Positions 15,472-59,968 of a stretch of DNA of 64,000 bases are shown here, piece after piece. How positions within the stretch are numbered: position 1 is the stretch's first letter; the number at the start of each line of letters is the position of its first letter. Location: assembly GCA_943736015.1 (NCBI GenBank), contig OX031064.1, forward strand, positions 37,871,361-37,935,360, in the 5' to 3' direction. The notes under the pieces were generated by a model. It worked only from the letters and a program-made list of their open reading frames with translations, was not told the origin of the DNA and did not search any database. Made by a program: the position numbers and the translations under genes. Source of the stretch: Tridacna crocea (lineage: Eukaryota; Mollusca; Bivalvia; Cardiida; Cardiidae).

Positions 15472-15745
15472 ATAATTGGTTTGCAACACTCGAGAAGGGA
15501 CATTCGGACATTTGCGTAAAGTGTCGTCTCGGATCAGCCTGCGCAGTCCGCGCAGGCTAATCCGAGACGCCACTTTACGACCACATTGGATTTTGTGCTA
15601 CAGTGGACTTGTGCAAAACAGAAAATACCATGAAAACGTGAAGTGCCGTCTCGGATTAGCCTGCGCGGACTGCGCAGGCTGATCCGAGATGACACTTTAC
15701 GCAAATGTCCGAATGCCCGTTTTTTGGGTGTTTCAAGCCATATAA
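15472..15745. repeat. Family D double-hairpin element, copy 1
   Basis: Long inverted-repeat element. The outer ends are 'tataattggtttgcaacact' and 'gtttcaagccatata'. Each half contains its own near-perfect hairpin, GTCTCGGATCAGCCTGCGCA / GCGCAGGCTAATCCGAGAC, at about 15525-15590 and 15642-15702. The halves are separated by 'ttttgtgctacagtggactt'. It is non-coding. Confidence 0.88.
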
Positions 15746-15911
15746 TGAATACGATAAAGTAGTAATTGATATGAACCACGGTCTGGCAAAAGTGGGTTTG
15801 AAGCATCTTCTTGATGCACTATATCTAGTAAGCGATCACAGAATGATAAATTCATAAAATTTATTTTGTCTAACTATCGGCTGAATCCTGGGAAGAATAG
15901 TGCTTTCATAT

Positions 15912-16181
15912 AATTGGCTTGCAGCACGCGAAAAGGGGCATTGGGACATCTGCGTAAAGTGTCGTCTCGGATCAGCCTGTGCAGTCTGCGCAGGCTAATC
16001 CGAGACGAAACTTTACGACCACATTAGATTTTGTGCTACAGTAGACTTGCCCAAAACAGGAAATCGCATAAAAAACGGATAGTGTTGTTTCGGATTAGCC
16101 TGCGTGGGCTGCGCAGGCTGATCCGAAATGACACCTTACGCAGATGTCCGAATGCCCCTTTTCACGTTTTGAATGCCATAT
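15912..16181. repeat. Family D double-hairpin element, copy 2
   Basis: Same architecture as 15472-15745: 'cataattggcttgcagcacg'-type left end, two GCCTGYGCAG...CTGCGCAGGC hairpins, spacer 'tttgtgctacagtagacttg', right end 'ttttgaatgccatata'. Arms carry scattered unpaired changes. Confidence 0.86.
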
Positions 16182-16559
16182 ATAGAAAGTTTACAAAAAG
16201 CGAAAAGTTTCAACCGGGGTCGACGCGGTTTGCTTATTTCGGCAGCCATCATCATTAAAAACATTTGAAATGGATGATGATAACTATAACTGAATCGTAT
16301 TTTGTCAGTATAGGTCTTTTAAAGGCACACGATTCTTTTGTATATTTGATTGGATCTATCACATTTGTAAACAATGTTATATGAGTTTAATTGCAAATGT
16401 TACCAGGAATAACATATATTTCAGTCTTAGTGTATCTCTTATTATGCATTTCGTATATACACTAACGTTAGTCATACGAAATGGCACACAGATCAAACAA
16501 TAAAGAAAAGATAAATGCTTTTCTAGTTTAAGCATATTTTATTGCTGTATTATATTCAA

Positions 16560-17340
16560 GCTCACACAGGCGATACAGACAACAGAATTTTGAGAACATA
16601 GAATGATACATGTACATTGGCAAAGGGGTTTGGCCACAAGTTCTCTCAACATTGTTACGGCCATTCCCCTTCTCCAATTATATGTTGAACAAATGCAGAT
16701 ATATATAGCTGCTGAAAAACTTTTAAAGGTTACATGAATTCAAGAATATTAAACAAAAACAGATGAAAGAGTATTTCACTACATAAACACCGAAAAACAA
16801 TACGGCGTAAAATATAAGAAAGATATAGATAGAAAGATACGATATAAGCCGGGTTTCGAGATTGGACAAGTCTAATTAAATAACGACTCATACAGAATTG
16901 GCATAACGGTACGTTGTATAATCGTTAATTCGAACTTTTCTGAATCTTTGATAAATTCTTTGACAGTAAAAACTATTTCAGTGTTATCATTTAGACTTTG
17001 CCATCCTTAGATCAACATCCTTAGATTGGATCATAAGATCCAAAAAATAGTAAATTTAAACTTTAAGGATAGTACTTACGAAGTATGCAAACTAATATCA
17101 ATCTCTGATTGTTATAAGACAGGCAGTGAAGGATGTAATGTTCCACATCTTCTAAATGATAGCCACAGCGGCAAGAATTATTTTCAGAGCTGCGATCTTT
17201 GTGTATGTCAAATTCCAGAGAACTGCAGTTCTTTCTAAGCAGCGCATGAAAGAACCTACGATCTCCTATACTATAGAACTTTGGGACCACAGATAATGAA
17301 AATTGACGAAGGATTGTTGACTTGAACATGGAAAGTGCTT
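16560..17340 (-). pseudogene. LINE 3' end: ORF2 C-terminal tail and 3' untranslated part
   Basis: On the minus strand 17329-17063 encodes a block with VVPKFYSIGDRRF, ARLRNN-like 'LLRKNCSSLEFDIHK', then SCRCGYHLEDVEHYILHC, the C-x-C...H-x(3-4)-C tail of Jockey/CR1-like ORF2 proteins with cysteines intact. This matches the tail of the LINE at 4880-6110. The lower coordinates share 'ggccacaagttct' with the 3' untranslated part of that LINE. Everything upstream of the tail, including the catalytic core, is missing, so this is a 5'-truncated dead copy. Confidence 0.82.
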
Positions 17341-17527
17341 TTCTTGAATGAGAAAGAATTGCTTGCCATCAGCAAAGCCTCGTTTTCACTCATTGCATGA
17401 AGAACGAACTGTAAAATGTTATAATTGTATGGCAGGCTAAATAAACGGATTATAAAGCTATTTTCGGGTTCAATAAAACTAGATGTAAGGAAGATAAAAC
17501 GAGAGCAGTTACCGAATGCCCGTTTTG

Positions 17528-17754
17528 GTTAATCCTTTAACAATCAACTCTGCGTGTTTATGATCTGCAGATAGAAGGCTTTCGAAAACAGCATCAAAAA
17601 AGGTGAAAACGCTTTAAGCCAGTATTTTCTCGTTTCAATGATTCCTACCCTTTCAAAGACAATTCCCATCATTCGACCCAAATAGAATTTGTCGTCAGTA
17701 AAAGCTTCCAATTTGGAAAAGCGTAAACTTTGCCGTTATGTGAGGAGTTTATGC
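17528..17754 (+). mobile_element. Family A relic
   Basis: Starts 'gttaatcctttaacaatcaa', keeps 'agaaggctttcgaaaaca' and 'tttgtcgtcagtaaaagctt', and ends 'gttatgtgaggagttta'. The central hairpin is heavily eroded, so this is an old copy. Confidence 0.6.
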
Positions 17755-17921
17755 TCTCAGATTACCAAGGTGTTACATTTACAGCCTGTAAATAGCTTTA
17801 CAAATTAAAAGTCATAAACAATAAATTGTTTACAAGTTAACTAACAGCAATTTTATGTCTTATGGCGAACACTATACGAGAAACCAAGAGAGCAAAATAG
17901 ATCCTTTCACCTATATACGTT

Positions 17922-18134
17922 TCTAAAGCCTTAGGCTGCTAAATTCTATTCGCTGACCTTTTGTGACAGTGTAGATCAAGATCAGACTGCACAGAACGTG
18001 CAGTCTGATCTTTGATCTATACTGTCCAATTAGAAGAAAATATTTCCCAAAACATAACTTTGAATAAGCAATATTTGGTTTTTCACTATCGAATTGAAAA
18101 TTTCATTTTAGCTATTTAGCATGTTATGGGTTAA
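17922..18134 (+). mobile_element. Family C hairpin MITE
   Basis: Left end 'taaagccttaggctgctaaa', central palindrome with GATCAAGATCAGACTGCACA and its complement, right end 'tagctatttagcatgttatg' then TTAA at 18131-18134. Confidence 0.88.
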
Positions 18135-18159
18135 CCTTCACAGCGCTATCGGCGAAAAC

Positions 18160-18250
18160 AGTGGCTTTTTCAGATGGCTCCGATCATGATCAGACTGCAC
18201 AGAATGTACACTAGTATCTTGGATCCATCCCGATTAGTCAAGCCTGCTTT
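18160..18250 (+). mobile_element. Family C relic
   Basis: 'gatcatgatcagactgcaca' and 'tcttggatccatcccgatta' are a second, decayed family C hairpin just beyond the previous copy. Confidence 0.5.
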
Positions 18251-18327
18251 TAAGATAAGGTCGTTATCACTGTCGGTAGGGTGGTTCTTCAGTCGTCGAA
18301 GAGGTGAAGGCTACATGGTTAAATAGA

Positions 18328-18474
18328 TTTTTTTTTTTCGGTGAAAGATCGAAATTTATTTCATCTCGTGAGCACCATCGGTAATATTTTCACCAGTGGC
18401 TGCGCCACTCGAGAAAATATTACCGATGGTGTCCACTCGATGAAATAAATTTCGATCTTTCACCGAAAAAAACA
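18328..18474. repeat. Family G palindrome, copy 1
   Basis: Arms run from 'tttttttcggtgaaagatcg' through 'caccatcggtaatatttt' and back ('aaaatattaccgatggtg', 'cgatctttcaccgaaaaaa'). The loop is around 'caccagtggctgcgccac'. The same palindrome is at 38475-38620, and both are followed by 'tatcctctatatatt', so the repeat extends beyond the palindrome. Confidence 0.9.
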
Positions 18475-19091
18475 ATTATCCTCTATATATTAAAATTCTG
18501 TCACTCTAATGGGGTTCGATGCAGTTATAAAGCTCGTCATCCAGACTACTTTTTCTCAACCGCATCACATCTTATTCCTCTTTTTCATTGGATTGTCCAG
18601 TCTCAACCAATCAGCTCGAAAGTCTAAGAAATAATGTTTAAAAGAAAATAAACGGTTTTAGAAAATGACATCAAGCAAATTTCGACAGGCACTAATGTTG
18701 TGTTAAAGATTGGAAAACGACCTAGTATTGGCGAAACCCTGGACATACATGTCATGAAATTGCGAGATGTCGCCCTGATTTGACTGAAAGCGACGAAAAA
18801 TACCATTCAATAGTGAAACTCAGGACATAATTATATGATGTTTTTATATATGTGAGCTGCTGCCTTTATATTAGATACGTTGAAAGCAGCGTAAAACATT
18901 ATCCGAACAATTATTCTACTGGCCTATTTTGGAACCTTTTTTAGAAATTTCCCAGTGGACCAATGAGTACCACTGCAACATGCATATAACTCTTCATTTC
19001 TCAGATCATCTAATAAAACCTTTTTTTTTTTACCAGACGAAATGATTTTGCACGTTTTTAGAATTATATATAAACCATGCCCTGTGAAAAG

Positions 19092-19170
19092 GAGAACGAT
19101 GCATCTGCGAGCAGTATCGACCAGGTCAGCCTGCGCATTCCGGGCAGGCTGACCTGTAAGATGAATGTTT
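19092..19170. repeat. Short GCCTGC hairpin related to family D
   Basis: 'ccaggtcagcctgcgcattc' pairs with 'gggcaggctgacctg', set in 'agcatctgcg'-like flanks and 'gtttccgaacgcggaaagg'. It looks like a single-hairpin relative of family D. Confidence 0.5.
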
Positions 19171-19226
19171 CCGAACGCGGAAAGGACCATTTTACCTCCA
19201 GATTGCGTCGGTTGTCAAGCGAAATA

Positions 19227-19427
19227 GGGTCCGTATTCAAACCGTTTTTAAGAACATTCTTAGGCTTATTCTGAATTTTGTAATTTTGTCAATGTGAAAG
19301 TAACAGGACTTCCGAATGGCTAAACCAATTGGTTTAGCCAATCAGAAGTCCTGTTACTTTCACAGTGAGAAAATCATCAAGGTTTAGACAAAGAACGTTC
19401 TTAAGAATGGTTGGTGAATACGGACCC
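19227..19427. repeat. Family E foldback element, copy 1
   Basis: About 200-bp inverted repeat with outer ends 'gggtccgtattc' and 'gaatacggaccc', inner stem 'gtgaaagtaacaggacttc' and centre 'ggctaaaccaattggtttag'. The inner 45 bases of each arm pair nearly perfectly. The outer arms are more diverged. Confidence 0.9.
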
Positions 19428-19532
19428 AGATTTTTATGGATCATGCTATGGTAATGTGATTACTGTAATGGTATAATGTATCAAAGATGCATTAACCCAC
19501 CTTTTATCAGAGCGCATCCCAATTATACTGAA

Positions 19533-19773
19533 AGCATTTCGGACATTGGCGTAAAGTCTCTTCTCAGATTAGCCTGTGCAGTCCTCGCTGGCGAATCCGA
19601 AACGACTCTCTCCGTTTTTTATTTAAGTTTCCGTTTTGCGCAAGTCCACTGTAGCACAAAATCTAATGTAGTCGTAAAGTGCCGTCTCGGATTAGCCTGC
19701 GCGGACTGCACAGGCTGATCCGAGACGACACTTTACGCAAATGTTTGATTGTCCCTTTTCACGTATTGCAAGC
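19533..19773. repeat. Family D double-hairpin element, copy 3
   Basis: The right half is intact (GTCTCGGATTAGCCTGCGCG...CTGATCCGAGACGAC, 'cgtattgcaagcc'). The left half is eroded ('ttctcagattagcctgtgca', 'cgctggcgaatccgaaacga'). Confidence 0.82.
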
Positions 19774-20199
19774 CAAATTTAAAATGTGTCCCGAACGACT
19801 GGATTTATCTTTGACATGATAGAAAGCATCGCGGGGATACAGGAAACAATGCAAATTGCAAGCACGTTATCTCCTTTTTTGCATGATGTTTACAAAAGCC
19901 TTCTTTCTTTGAGTCAATAAATCACAGGATTGTTTTTATAAATGGATCACCCACCGTTCCCATACAGTTTCAGAGTCTTTGACAAGCGATATACACGAAA
20001 AACGTTGAAAGTGGGGAAACCATCCTCTTTTGACTGAATTTGAAAAGCATTGTGGGATACATGAGCCAATAACCTGTTCCAAAAACACGCATTCTGAAAA
20101 TAAATTTATCACCACTCTCTATGGCCTCAGGCTTCGTATAATAATACAAGTAGAACCACGACAAAGGATAAATTGCACTTATGAGAAATTTCTCTCTTC

Positions 20200-21446
20200 A
20201 GCACAACACTATCAAAGTGGTCTGAGAAAACATTGGCCTCACGAGGAAATGGACAAAAAATACTATCGGTATATGTATTCAACATTGCATGAAACTATGA
20301 AACTAAATTGGTCAGAATAAAAGATAAGATATCTGATTAATCGACTGCTCTATATTTCCATTCATATCTGATTACATGCACGCGGAATGGATGTTTCTAC
20401 ATGAAAAAGGGCCCTCGGGAATTCTGTAAAGCAATATGTTTGCAATGAAATTATAGAACATGCATCTCTCGTTTATCTTAATTACGAATGATTAATAAAC
20501 CAAGATTTTCGTATAAGCCGGCGATTTTTCTTATTGGGAAGAACAACAGTACTCCTACATTTCGCGAAATGCACTTTAAACAAGGTTAAACAAGAGGACC
20601 CCGACAGCCCTGTACTGTCGACTGTCTTCCAGATAAACTGGTTTTAAACGTCATTAAGATAGAGAAAGAAACATTCGATCGTAAGAAGCTTGTATTAGAA
20701 TGTATAAAGTTCCGGGTACAAAATACTCGAAGAATGATTCCAACCTTGCTTTCTGTCAAACATTCCTGAATGTAAGCTGAATATTTTCTAAGATAAGATA
20801 TTTAATACTAACCATGTTAAAGTACATCATTATAATCAAAGAAAATGAATGACAACAAATAAAAAATGGTTATTATTTCTCTTCATCATTATTGGTTGTT
20901 TATGGCTTATAATGAGGATGGCAGTATATATGCGCAGACACGGTGTCATGACATAATCTAGATGGACTTCTGACAACAGAGACAAAGAAAAAGGATAGCC
21001 GTTCGTTAACTGATATCATGACTAAGTTACAACATTCTCTTTTATCACATAACTCTCCTTGTTTTCAATGTAATACAGCCATTACGAATTTGCTTGCCTC
21101 ACACATGTGTGAGATAAGATAATAGTGCTGTATTTGGTCATCTCTCTGAAATTATACGCTTCATTTCTAAAACAATGCTGACCTTGGCTTCTGAAGGAAA
21201 TTAGCGGTCAAAGTTTTGATCGTGATAAAGTTGTGAATTAATCACTGTTAGACTCAAACAAAAATCATAATGCAAGTTTCTTCGGAACTATTTTCGATCA
21301 TAATGTACCTGTCAAAGTAAGTGCACAGGCTTCATATAAATTTCACTACACATGATACATGTATGCCTGTGGTTTAACACATTTTGGACTATAATTCTTG
21401 TTATGCAGTAATGTGATAAAAAGAATCTGACGCTCGTTGCTTTTTG
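20200..21446. other. Stretch with no recognisable gene or repeat
   Basis: A 96-codon plus-strand frame at 20030-20320 has a plausible composition at its C-terminus (HYQSGLRKHWPHEEMDKKYY) but no recognised family and no splice context. Nothing else is assigned. Confidence 0.35.
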
Positions 21447-21550
21447 AGGTGAAAATTCATTAAACTCGTCCACAAAAAATGTTATTAAGCTCGCCACAGG
21501 CTCGCTTAATAACATTTTTTGTAGACTCGTTTAATAAATTTTTATCTCAA
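21447..21550. repeat. Family N palindrome
   Basis: Arms contain 'aaactcgtccacaaaaaatg' with 'ttattaagctcgcc', and 'ggctcgcttaataacatttt' with 'ttgtagactcgtttaataaa', bounded by 'ttgaggtgaaaatt' and 'aatttttatctcaac'. Diverged or half copies are at 26197-26260, 36420-36545 and 43362-43425. Confidence 0.82.
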
Positions 21551-21656
21551 CAACCAACTCATGTCAGATCCTATATATCACATACAATTTTTTCTTGCTG
21601 AAGTTAAGTCTTATATGGTGACATCGTGTAATTCTCATCAAATCGTCATAAAATCA

Positions 21657-21854
21657 GGGCCTGTATTCACCAACCATTCCTGAGAACATTCTTAGTCTTA
21701 TTCTTCAGAATTTCGTCAGTGTGAAAGTAATAGAACTTCTGATTGGCTAAACCAAATGGTTTAGCCAATGAGAAGTTCTGTTACTTTCACTGTCAGAAAA
21801 TCTTGAAGAATAAGACAAAGAACGTTCTCAAGAATGATTGGTGAATACGGGCCC
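21657..21854. repeat. Family E foldback element, copy 2 (best preserved)
   Basis: Near-perfect 198-bp inverted repeat from 'gggcctgtattcaccaacca' to 'attggtgaatacgggccc'. The centre is 'ctgattggctaaaccaaatg' followed by its complement. Arms carry only a handful of mismatches over about 95 bases. Confidence 0.93.
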
Positions 21855-22162
21855 TGGTCTCAAATGCGAGTTAGATGAAAAGACTTGTAAACGTTATATC
21901 ACACTGACGACAAGGGAGGTCACCTGATAAAAATAGCATAAAATGCCCGAATCTCAACACATAGGCGTTTTACCCGATACACAAGTCTGAAGAACAATTT
22001 GCCAGATGATTTGGTCTATCACCGAATATTAATATGTGAAAACTATTGGCTCTTTAAAGCTTAATCGTTACCAAACAATTTCCTGTCTTAACCACCTTCA
22101 GGAAACTAGCTCTTGTGTCGGCGACGGAAACTATAGGTTTTGAATCGGCAGAACAGTAGCTC

Positions 22163-22425
22163 ACATATGGACTGCAACACGCGAATAGGGGCATTCAAAC
22201 ATTTTGGGTACAGTGTCGTCTCGAATCAGCCTGCACAGTCCGCGCAGGCTCATCCGAAACGAAACTTTCCGTTTTTAGTTAATTTTCTGTTTTGCGGAAG
22301 TGTACATAAATCTAATGTAGTCGTGAAGTATCGTCTCGGATCAGCCTGCACGAAATGCGCAGGCTGATCCGAGACGATACTTTACGCAAATGTCCGAATG
22401 CCCCTTTTCGCTTGTTGCAATCCAT
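22163..22425. repeat. Family D double-hairpin element, copy 4
   Basis: Left end 'catatggactgcaacacgcg', first hairpin with AGCCTGCACAGTCCGCGCAG (imperfect), spacer lacking part of 'tagcacaaaatc', second hairpin GTCTCGGATCAGCCTGCACG...GATCCGAGACGATAC, right end 'gcttgttgcaatccat'. Confidence 0.85.
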
Positions 22426-29669: not shown

Positions 29670-29673
29670 ATTT
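29670..29673 (+). repeat. Target-site duplication ATTT, left copy
   Basis: ATTT directly precedes the left terminal repeat of the 3.9-kb transposon. The same four bases follow the right terminal repeat at 33597-33600. Confidence 0.65.
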
Positions 29674-29694
29674 CGAGGTATTACTGCCAGAAGG
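29674..29694 (+). repeat. Left terminal inverted repeat
   Basis: The 21 bases starting CGAGGTATTACTGCC are exactly complementary to 33576-33596. The inner continuation 'tcctatgtgcc' pairs partly with the other end. Confidence 0.88.
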
Positions 29695-30319
29695 TCCTAT
29701 GTGCCAAAATTTCAGATTTTCACATTTCTAGATGCACAATTTCATTTCACACGTTTTATTCTAAACTAGATCTCTCTATGTAGCGTAGCTTCTTTTCCGA
29801 GTTATCAGCCAAAAACAAAACCAGCTATATCTACAGTGCAGGTTTATTGGCTGCCAGAGTAGCCTATGTAACGATAGACCCCACTCTAAAAGAGTTCATA
29901 CAATTAAATTTCGAACCACATCGTCCTATCTTAAAGTAGCTTACTTTGGCAAAAAAGCATTGAAAGAGATACACGGAAATTTGTTCTGCCAAATCCTGCC
30001 ATCTAAAAATAGCAGGTTCTGGCTTTATGAAACTGAAGAATTATGATGTAAAATTGCTCTGCCAAAATATTCTATATAAAGATAGAAATTATAATTCTAT
30101 ATAGAATATATTTCCTTACATGCCAGACCATACTAACTTTTAATAGCTTGTCAAGTAGGAACAAGTCAGGTAAGTGGATGGTAAACATTGATGTCAAAAA
30201 GAGTTTATACTGGGAAAGCTTGTTTTGGTGGAAACTAATGCAATATGACACCATCTAATTAAGTGTTGATAACAGCCTATACATGGAGGATGTCTGGAGT
30301 TAGCAAAACAAAAGAATGC

Positions 30320-30386
30320 AGAATTTGATGACATTATACAGGTTTTGTGCCGTTATAAGTCAGGAATATACCCGAGACAATTGATG
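30320..30386 (+). pseudogene. Possible first coding exon of the transposon gene
   Basis: Frame reading AEFDDIIQVLCRYKSGIYPR then QLM, ending at a strong donor ATG|GTAAGT (GT at 30387-30388). An acceptor 'cattttcag' ends at 30832. The next exon starts MENEWSDSEVE in the same phase, giving a 446-bp intron. The start of this exon is not established. The splice model is inference. Confidence 0.4.
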
Positions 30387-32131
30387 GTAAGTAAAACTTC
30401 AATAATTACAAAATTTATCATACTTAGAATAAAATTTGTCATGACTATAGCCAAATGCATCTGTAGTGATGATGAAGATGATTATAATTGTTGTTGTGAT
30501 TTTGTTCATAATTTTTCATTTTTCTTTTTTTTAAACTCCATCTTTAGTAACTTTAACATGGCTTTTGAAAACATTATAGAAAAAGAGAAAATAAATACTG
30601 GTGACCTTTTAATTTCCATTTGTTACAGGTTTGACTGGCACAGGACTGTTTTCCACAATAGTTTCTTCTTTCTAGCATAGATTTTATTATATCGACCATG
30701 TCTAAAACCAGACCTACTTTCACCTTAGTGAGAGAGTTAAATACTGTGTGCTATAAACTTATGAAATGTTGATTAAATACACACACAAAAAACCCCCCAA
30801 ATTAAATGATAATCTTACCATATCATTTTCAGATGGAGAATGAATGGAGCGACTCAGAGGTAGAAATACTAACAATAACATCACTTGGTGAGAGAAGCAG
30901 AGATTACACTTCCACCTCTATGAATAATTACCAACAAAGACAAAATATATTTGATTCATTCTGGAAACTAGGCAGCTATGAAAGGCAAAAAGAATTTGTA
31001 TGAGGAAAAGTTAAAGAAGATAATACCAAGACTTTTCAATATGAAACTGGAAAGCCATTCCCAATGCGAAGGCAGGTATCGAGGAAGTTTTTACTTGAAA
31101 TTGATGGATCAAATCACCAAGTTTGTAAAACTTTTTTCATGGATACACTCTCTGTTGACAAGACTTACATTGATCACGCTTTAAATTTGAGGGTCATTTT
31201 GCTGGAGTGAGTCGAAGGGGGAAACATGTTCCACATAACAAATTGCAGGAAGATCAGGTTGCATTTGTAAAAAAAACATATTGAATCTTTCCCAAAAGTT
31301 GAAGGACACTATGTTCGCAAAGAGACTAGGCGGGAGTTCTTAGGACCAGAGCTTTCGTTATCAAAAATATATGACCTTTATGAGGAGAAATGTCAGAAAG
31401 AACAAAAGGAACCGGTCAAGGCTTCTAGATATAGGAAGATATTTAATGAATGCTTCAACTTATCTTTTCATATTCCAAAAAGAAGACTAATGTAATACAT
31501 GCAGCAAATACAGTACATCACTTCAGAAGAACGCAGTTACTACAGAAAATAAAAATGCATTTAACGAACACCAGGAACGAAAGATCAGAGCCAGACAGGA
31601 AAAGAATAGAGATAAGAATAATGCAAAGACACAACCCAATTTGCATGTTTGCTGTTTTGATCTTCAATCGGTGCTCTATACACCATGCTCACTGGTCAGT
31701 TTGATGTACTACATACGTAAGTTATGCTGTTACAATTTATCCTTCTACAGCTTAGGAAATTCAAATGGTACTTGTTTTGTTTGGACCAAGGTTGAAGCCA
31801 AAAGAGGAGCTTCAGGGATTGCTACAGGTCTGAAGTTATATCTTGAGTCCCTTCCTGACGAGGTTACACATGTCATTTTCTACTCTGATGGATGTAGGGG
31901 ACAAAACAGAAACAAAATCATCGCATGTTGTCTTCTTGACTCTGTCATAAAACACAGAAAAATAGACATAATAGATCTTAAGTTTTCAGAAAGCGGGTAC
32001 ACTCACGTGGAGGTGGAATCTGTGCATGCTGCTGTAGAATTTGCGAAAAAGAAAACACAAACTTTTGTGCCTTCGCACTGGGACACGGTATTGCAAATGC
32101 GCGAAGAAGAAACCCATATACAGTAGTCCCA

Positions 32132-32360
32132 TTAACTCTTTACCACATGACAGAATTTTAATTTTGGTCCAAATTGAAAGCATTTGTAGACGACAAAATA
32201 AATGTGAATCAAAAATTGAAATTTTATTTGGAAATGGTAGAAAACATTGTGGGAAAAGGAGAAAATGCTGGTTACCATTATTTTCTCCTTTCCCACAATG
32301 TTTTCAAAGGCTTTCTTTTTCAGTGTCGTTAAAAGTCGGGATTGTGTGGTAAAGAGTTAA
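32132..32360 (-). mobile_element. Family A hairpin MITE inserted in the transposase gene
   Basis: TTAA at 32132-32135 and 32357-32360, ends 'ctctttaccacatgac' and 'gtgtggtaaagag'. The hairpin core GCTGGTTACCATTAT has lost pairing on the right. Skipping 225 bases (element plus one TTAA) joins PYTVVPL to RHTDMLDF in one frame. This shows that a single TTAA was the target and was duplicated. The element is therefore younger than the host transposon. Confidence 0.93.
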
Positions 32361-32400
32361 GGCATACTGACATGCTTGACTTCAAAAAGTTTCAAGCAAC

Positions 32401-32484
32401 TTATCGATGGGTGAGTGCAACACTATCCTAAGTGCCTATACTTTATATAAACACTTAGGATAGTGTTGCACTCAGCCATCGTTA
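32401..32484. mobile_element. Family B hairpin element inserted in the transposase gene
   Basis: 30-base arms 'cgatgggtgagtgcaacact' onward and complement pair with few mismatches around an AT-rich loop 'cctatactttatataaa'. TTA flanks both sides (32401-32403 and 32482-32484). Skipping 81 bases restores one frame (QATY then MKPQKKTDKG). A second copy is at 35023-35105. Confidence 0.85.
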
Positions 32485-33185
32485 TATGAAACCACAAAAG
32501 AAGACTGACAAAGGTTTAAAAGTAATGTGAACAAAGATGAAATGGATGAGGTATCTGAAATCCAAGCCAGATGCATGTCCTTTCAAATACAGCATGGAAG
32601 AAGAATTCCAAAAAGTTAAAATTACAGGGAAGAAACGGCAGCAATGGTTTGATGTCAGAGGGCTTGATGAGGAAGTACTAGAAAAAAAATCCAGATTTCT
32701 GCTGCAAAAAAAGAAGAACCTAATGCAGCTCTGTAAGAGTGGAGTAATTCCAGTAGAGTAGCATGAGTATTACAAAAGTCTTCCATCAAGTAACTCTTCA
32801 AAAGACACTCTTCCAGAACCTGATGTCATGGAGGATACAAGTGATGATGCTGATGACTATTAGAGATTATATAGATTTAAAGTAGATCTTAATTATCATA
32901 ATTTTCGGAAGGCTTTATTTTAAAAGATTGCAGACTAAAAACAGAGGCCTATAAATTCAAATAACAGTTTAATCATTGGTAACTGTGATTTTTAGAATAT
33001 TTTGATGTTAAACTTATGTTACTTTTGTATTAAAGAGTATGTGCCATAAACAGCTATCTATCTATAAACTGTTTTGATTATGTGTATTTGGATTTGATAA
33101 CCAACTTTTGCAGTGCCATAAAGGTGTATAATTAAAAGGTATGTTTTGACTGTATTCTTATGGTCAGTTGTATTATAAACTGTCC

Positions 33186-33204
33186 CTGCCAAAAAGTCCT
33201 ATCT
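33186..33204 (+). repeat. Subterminal copy of the transposon inner-end motif
   Basis: CTGCCAAAAAGTCCTATCT matches the inner part of the terminal repeat (CTGCCAGAAGGTCCTATGT at 29684-29702). Others are at 29851-29869 (CTGCCAGAGTAGCCTATGT), 30059-30077 (CTGCCAAAATATTCTATAT) and within the right terminus. They are candidate transposase-binding sites. Confidence 0.5.
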
Positions 33205-33575
33205 TTTTTTGGAATGTTCTGGCATATACTAGTGGAAGTAATAGGGACGAAATAGCATAGCTATCTTTTTATAGCACGGTATGGCACACAAGGTTATGAA
33301 TTCAACAAATACTTTTCACAGTGCCAAAACCTGCTATATCATTATAGGTTGTTTTAGAATGAAACTTTCATGTAACATTTATCATATTTTGAGAGCAAAA
33401 ACAATTTTGTGCAATTTTAGGATAGCAGCTGTATTTTGAACACAATTTTAATCAGTAAGATATAGAAAGTCCATGTATGAATGTGTATTCTAAGTTTGGT
33501 TTGAATATTCTGACAATGAAGGATTTGAGACAGTTTTTTCTTCCTCCTGTAAAATTTCAAAAAGTGCAGATAGTG

Positions 33576-33596
33576 CCTTCTGGCAGTAATACCTCG
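33576..33596 (-). repeat. Right terminal inverted repeat
   Basis: Ends 'ctggcagtaatacctcg', an exact complement of the left terminus over 21 bases. Confidence 0.88.
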
Positions 33597-33600
33597 ATTT
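33597..33600 (+). repeat. Target-site duplication ATTT, right copy
   Basis: Immediately follows the right terminal repeat and matches 29670-29673. Confidence 0.65.
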
Positions 33601-35022: not shown

Positions 35023-35105
35023 TATCGATAGGTGAGTGCAACACTATTCTAAGTGCATGTACATTGTACAGGAACTTAGAATAGTGTTGCACTCACCTAT
35101 CGATA
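35023..35105. mobile_element. Family B hairpin element, intact copy
   Basis: 'tatcgataggtgagtgcaac' with 'actattctaagt' and exact complement at the other end, with loop 'gcatgtacattgtacagga'. The arms pair without mismatch over about 32 bases. It is better preserved than the copy in the transposase gene. Confidence 0.88.
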
Positions 35106-59700: not shown

Positions 59701-59968
59701 AATTGGCCTGCAACACGTGAAAAGGGACATTCGGACATCTGCGTAAAGTGTCGTCTCGGATTAGCCTGCGCTGTCCGCGCAGGCTAATCCGAGACGACAC
59801 TTTCCGTTTTCATGCAATTTTCTGTTTTGCGCATGTCTACTGTAGCACAAAATCTAATGCAGTCGTAAAGTGCCGTCTCGGATTAGCCTGCGCGGACTGC
59901 GCAGGCTGATCCGAAACGACACTTTACGCAGATGTCCGAACGTCCCTTTTCGCGTGTTGCACACCATA
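59701..59968. repeat. Family D double-hairpin element, best preserved copy
   Basis: Ends 'cataattggcctgcaacacg'-type and 'gcgtgttgcacaccatatg'. The first hairpin (GTCTCGGATTAGCCTGCGCT...GCAGGCTAATCCGAGACGAC) is almost perfect, as is the second. The spacer is 'ctgttttgcgcatgtctact'. Confidence 0.9.

Follow-up and report, generated by a model that had tools for sequence, protein, structure and literature searches.

DUF7869 (PF25273) is a family name to which Pfam assigns no function, and the name was not found in the literature searched. The question raised by the present locus is whether proteins of this family move the DNA in which they are encoded. The locus is an element of 3,923 bp at 29674-33596 of a 64,000-nucleotide stretch of contig OX031064.1 from Tridacna crocea (the whole stretch is hereafter called the window), which a sequence-only reading had described as a complete-ended DNA transposon carrying a DUF7869-type gene. 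The element is probably a degenerate Sola2-type cut-and-paste transposon, and its intact DUF7869 relatives are most likely D-D-D transposases with an RNase H/integrase-like core. A family name without a function gains a testable one from copies with defined boundaries and target-site duplications, from an empty site and from a core resembling integrases, and annotators could treat DUF7869 proteins as transposons rather than host genes.

The element is delimited by four features:
29670-29673: left target-site duplication, ATTT.
29674-29694, forward strand: left terminal inverted repeat of 21 bp, CGAGGTATTACTGCCAGAAGG; the C4 and C13 copies have the same end, and the C2 end differs from it by two changes.
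33576-33596, reverse strand: right terminal inverted repeat of 21 bp, the reverse complement of CGAGGTATTACTGCCAGAAGG.
33597-33600: right target-site duplication, ATTT.

The two ends are identical at 21 of 21 bases, and the perfect repeats and ATTT duplication noticed earlier were both confirmed at 29670-33600. Sibling copies were sought in a 1.05-Gb assembly of 31 contigs, for which whole-genome copy counts are lower bounds. Besides small fragments, at least four further copies of substantial length were found, with pieces 86-96% identical. Two of the copies, C4:1318258-1322119 and C13:32156632-32160229, are complete, end on the same bases as the window element and are each flanked by their own duplication (ATAT/ATAT in both cases), which proves the boundary in the window; the description as a complete-ended transposon is therefore correct. 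The C2 copy has kept its left end and lost its right end, whereas the right end is retained in the C6 copy and in a C2 fragment. A search with the 21-bp end, allowing up to three mismatches, returned 17 sites (the reversed pattern gave three matches). Nine of these have at most two mismatches, all at the ends of known copies or of the fragment. Around the other eight, with three mismatches, 3-kb loci showed neither an inverted partner accompanied by the corresponding duplication nor any part of the family except the common TTAA miniature inverted-repeat transposable element (MITE). Neither gene copies lacking these ends nor these ends around a different transposase were encountered among the copies whose ends were examined, the truncated C2 and C6 copies each keeping one end. 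Weak opposite-strand end matches with six mismatches occur at L022 and L023, and no short derivative family using exactly the window-element ends was seen among the end-search sites. No empty site was found for the window insertion, which lies in unique DNA. L043 (C6:42311793-42312624) is a divergent relative that shares 72% identity with the window element along part of the coding remains.

At least 16 places in the genome score above the PF25273 cut-off, and no DUF7869 matches were found in 14 control genomes. The window element is assigned to the family because one of its pieces is 63% identical to the proteins of L037 and L038, which themselves exceed the Pfam threshold of 26 bits, scoring 29.4 and 29.3 bits; the same piece is 32-40% identical to four other DUF7869 proteins. 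The Pfam DUF7869 model gave no match at E ≤ 1 to five open window pieces, and five short window frames scanned against Pfam returned only unrelated sub-threshold names. A search for both ends covered ten of the 16 places (L031, L032, L035, L037, L038 and L041 lay outside it), and both ends were found at eight of the ten; paired ends were not found in the stretches fetched for C13b, where just a candidate left end is present, and for C18, which has none. The element at C3:57885343-57891517 has 30-bp perfect repeats and an ATAT duplication around a single frame of 1,027 amino acids. The elements at C8:17809126-17814183 and C6:52835741-52840813 are 99.3% alike and have common CGTCGGTGGGG ends, but differ in their duplications (TTAT and ATAT, respectively). 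A further group (L036, L039 and L040) has the ends GAGCCGCGTC/GGGCCGCGTC and duplications of ATGT, ATAT and ATTT; the right end of L041 is unlike that of its sister copies. Perfect 28-bp repeats and ATAT duplications bound the elements at C7:5599910-5606240 and C9:54296188-54302544, the register in C9 being uncertain by 2 bp owing to an ATATAT flank. These two elements were counted as one insertion because their similarity runs on into the flanks. In both C7 (L083, L034 and L084) and C9 (L033, L085 and L086), the L033/L034 element seems to lie inside a larger repeat unit with AAAGGTGG at one boundary and its complement at the other.

One genome therefore holds five divergent families of DUF7869 elements with inverted repeats and 4-bp duplications. 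Their ends start with CGAGG, CGCGG, CGTCGG, GAGCC/GGGCC and GAGCG, and the repeats are perfect over 21, 28 and 30 bp in three families, about 18 bp with one mismatch in another and 25 bp with five mismatches in another. Ten insertion events could be read, including the three complete copies of the window family, and the duplication fits the pattern AWWT strictly in eight and nearly in two (TTAT and ATGT). Searches of viral contigs with one peptide pattern (24 matches) and of bacterial and archaeal contigs with two patterns (48 matches) yielded no confirmed relatives, which is weak evidence of absence in either case.

An empty site is available for the C8 relative, which lies within an interspersed repeat. 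When its flanks were joined, 39 of the 40 matches listed were other places that align across the junction, and one was the left flank of the element itself. Three of the empty sites were read base by base; all are free of gaps and contain a single TTAT.

The coding part of the window element comprises the following features:
30881-32158, forward strand: decayed coding remains of a DUF7869-type transposase in several frames (tblastn E values of 3e-53 and 5e-55 for the intact C3 and C13b proteins as queries).
31491-31505, forward strand: CxxC motif, upstream of the catalytic core.
31659-31661, forward strand: first conserved acid, the D of FDLQ.
31887-31889, forward strand: second conserved acid, the D of YSDGCRGQN.
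32016-32018, forward strand: third conserved acid, E in the window copy and D in relatives.
32729-32752, forward strand: LCKSGVIP motif, C-terminal in the transposase remains.

All nine motifs quoted in the sequence-only reading are present (at 30959, 31121, 31213, 31286, 31491, 31656, 31881, 32007 and 32729), although they are spread over three different frames, a break that it did not mention. The window element is thus a dead copy with intact ends. Across 31641-32126, differences from the siblings at the three codon positions number 13/10/9 for C13, 4/8/4 for C2, 7/13/5 for C4 and 14/14/15 for C6, an even spread as for dead copies, and the second acid is lost in the C13 and C6 siblings. With regard to the proposed catalytic triad, the first two acids (31659 and 31887) stand, while the third column near 32016, which is E in the window copy, is D in all six relatives covering it, so that the triad of the family is D-D-D. 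Wherever a relative covers these three columns, the D is conserved. Structure prediction of the core gave a fold that matches integrases best, with modest confidence. A sequence search of the PDB with the DUF7869 profile returned two weak acetyltransferase rows.

The proposal that DUF7869 proteins are the transposases of these elements is strongly supported, although not proven, by the five bounded families, the base-exact empty site, the pattern of acids and the integrase-like fold predicted with modest confidence. From the ends, the duplications, the empty site of one relative, the protein homology across families and the three conserved acids, we infer that the DUF7869 protein probably cuts and joins the DNA by a cut-and-paste route. 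It would bind the inverted ends starting with CG or GRG, excise the element and join it at AT-rich tetranucleotides of the consensus AWWT, where a 4-base stagger would give rise to the 4-bp duplications.

The superfamily had been left open between Sola, Academ and KDZ, and the duplications point to Sola2. In PMC3627910, Sola2 elements have ends of 12-21 bp, and their 4-bp duplications follow AWWT (for example, ATAT, AAAT and ATTT). The families described here share the AT-rich AWWT duplications, short inverted ends (about 18-30 bp) and a large transposase, and since the duplications fit that pattern the best filing is Sola2-like. The filing is made by duplications and ends rather than by named Sola2 transposases, and the window element is not a proven member. 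Sola is placed among RNase H-like families (PMC3985635), and no Sola end or duplication data were found in the accessible parts of PMC10294476, PMC5753468 and PMC4455052. The present families differ from one another at their termini and, in two relatives, from Sola2 by an N-terminal tegument-type deubiquitinase domain. Sola2 termini begin with GRG, which corresponds to GAG or GGG in two of the families, whereas the other three, including that of the window element, begin with CG. A DDD catalytic triad is reportedly characteristic of Sola, and the D-D-D columns of the relatives agree with it, the window copy having E at the third. The CG start and the integrase-like predicted fold are both points in favor of a different superfamily that makes 4-bp duplications (Ginger2, Academ or one without a name as yet), which we regard as a possible but less probable assignment. 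Ginger1 and Ginger2 likewise combine 4-bp duplications with an integrase-type catalytic core, and Ginger2 duplicates AT-rich RTATAY sites (PMC2836005). However, Ginger ends read TGTNR (PMC2836005), in contrast to the CG or GAG/GGG found here, and the rve-type integrase of that group was not seen either, with no rve or zf-H2C2 Pfam match at E ≤ 0.1 in eight relative proteins. The piggyBac superfamily was rejected, as it requires a TTAA duplication and the window family has ATTT, ATAT and ATAT.

It is improbable that DUF7869 is a passenger gene moved by another protein, encoded elsewhere or in an unrecognized part of the element, even though about 1.2 kb upstream of the window coding remains is unexplained. 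The five divergent families combine a common 4-bp duplication with differing ends, as expected if the protein and the ends coevolve. Furthermore, on the coding strand of the C3 element a single frame of at least 150 amino acids was found, consisting of a deubiquitinase domain and DUF7869, and the core with its conserved acids and predicted fold also argues for a catalytic role of DUF7869 itself.

To assess chance pairing, a scan was made for inverted pairs with arms of at least 14 bp that lie 2.5-8 kb from each other and have a 4-bp duplication. The real window contains ten such pairs, shifted versions of one pair being counted, and the longest is 24 bp; 19 of 20 Markov shuffles contained none and the remaining one a single 14-bp pair. 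The 24-bp pair (2476/9287), judged by its letters, looks like two facing copies of the TTAA MITE, and pairing alone is therefore insufficient as proof of a boundary. Facing repeats do yield inverted pairs in the window, but the idea that a host gene or repeat lies by chance between inverted MITE copies is refuted by siblings on other chromosomes that end on the same bases with duplications of their own.

Two relatives carry a further domain. In the C3 element (L027 and L046) and at the C13b locus (L028 and L047), a Herpes_teg_N domain (PF04843) is fused to DUF7869 in one open frame; it starts the protein in both cases (32.4 and 41.6 bits, respectively, against a Pfam cut-off of 25), and the translated sequences contain Cys and Asp-Ser-His. 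Viral tegument-like deubiquitinases (VTDs) occur mostly in Helitrons, with Asp-x-His named as catalytic, and cnidarian fusions to transposon-associated domains are mentioned (PMC9741609). The C3 and C13b proteins resemble VTDs in the PF04843 domain, with Cys and Asp-x-His in place, but differ in being joined to a DUF7869 protein, in C3 within an element with inverted ends. A deubiquitinase-DUF7869 fusion was not found in the literature searched, including the accessible part of PMC9741609, and tblastn at E ≤ 0.01 revealed no remnant of the deubiquitinase in the window family. The fusion bears on the part played by mobile DNA in the spread of viral-type deubiquitinases. Tentatively, the CG-ended DUF7869 elements may constitute a separate lineage next to Sola2, some members of which, with the fused deubiquitinase, could be a further vehicle besides Helitrons for its spread among animals.

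The window element also contains two nested insertions, which the sequence-only reading did not mention:
32132-32360: MITE of about 221 bp with a TTAA duplication (insert 32136-32356), missing in the C13, C2 and C4 siblings.
32401-32485: MITE of 77 bp with CGATGG ends and a TTAT duplication (insert 32405-32481), missing in the same siblings.

Together they make up about 300 of the 3,923 bp. Both are younger than the window element, and their sites are unfilled in the C13, C2 and C4 siblings. The TTAA MITE is highly abundant, both genome-wide and within the loci that were fetched. The 77-bp MITE is near-palindromic with CGAT ends and has a second window copy at 35026-35102; a permissive initial search of the genome yielded 721 candidate places, 40 of which were scored. 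Perfect 4-bp duplications flank 18 of the 20 copies retrieved (ATAT in ten, AAAT in three, ATTT in two and TTAT, AGAT and ACAT in one each). The CG start and the target preference are those of the CG-type DUF7869 elements, which suggests that a CG-type DUF7869 transposase may have moved this MITE; a larger element bearing the same ends as the MITE was not recognized among loci L001-L062. Elsewhere in the window, at 15536-19699, 19712-22347 and 59780-59890, short inverted repeats that share a AGGCTAATCCGAGACG-like core occur in several copies.
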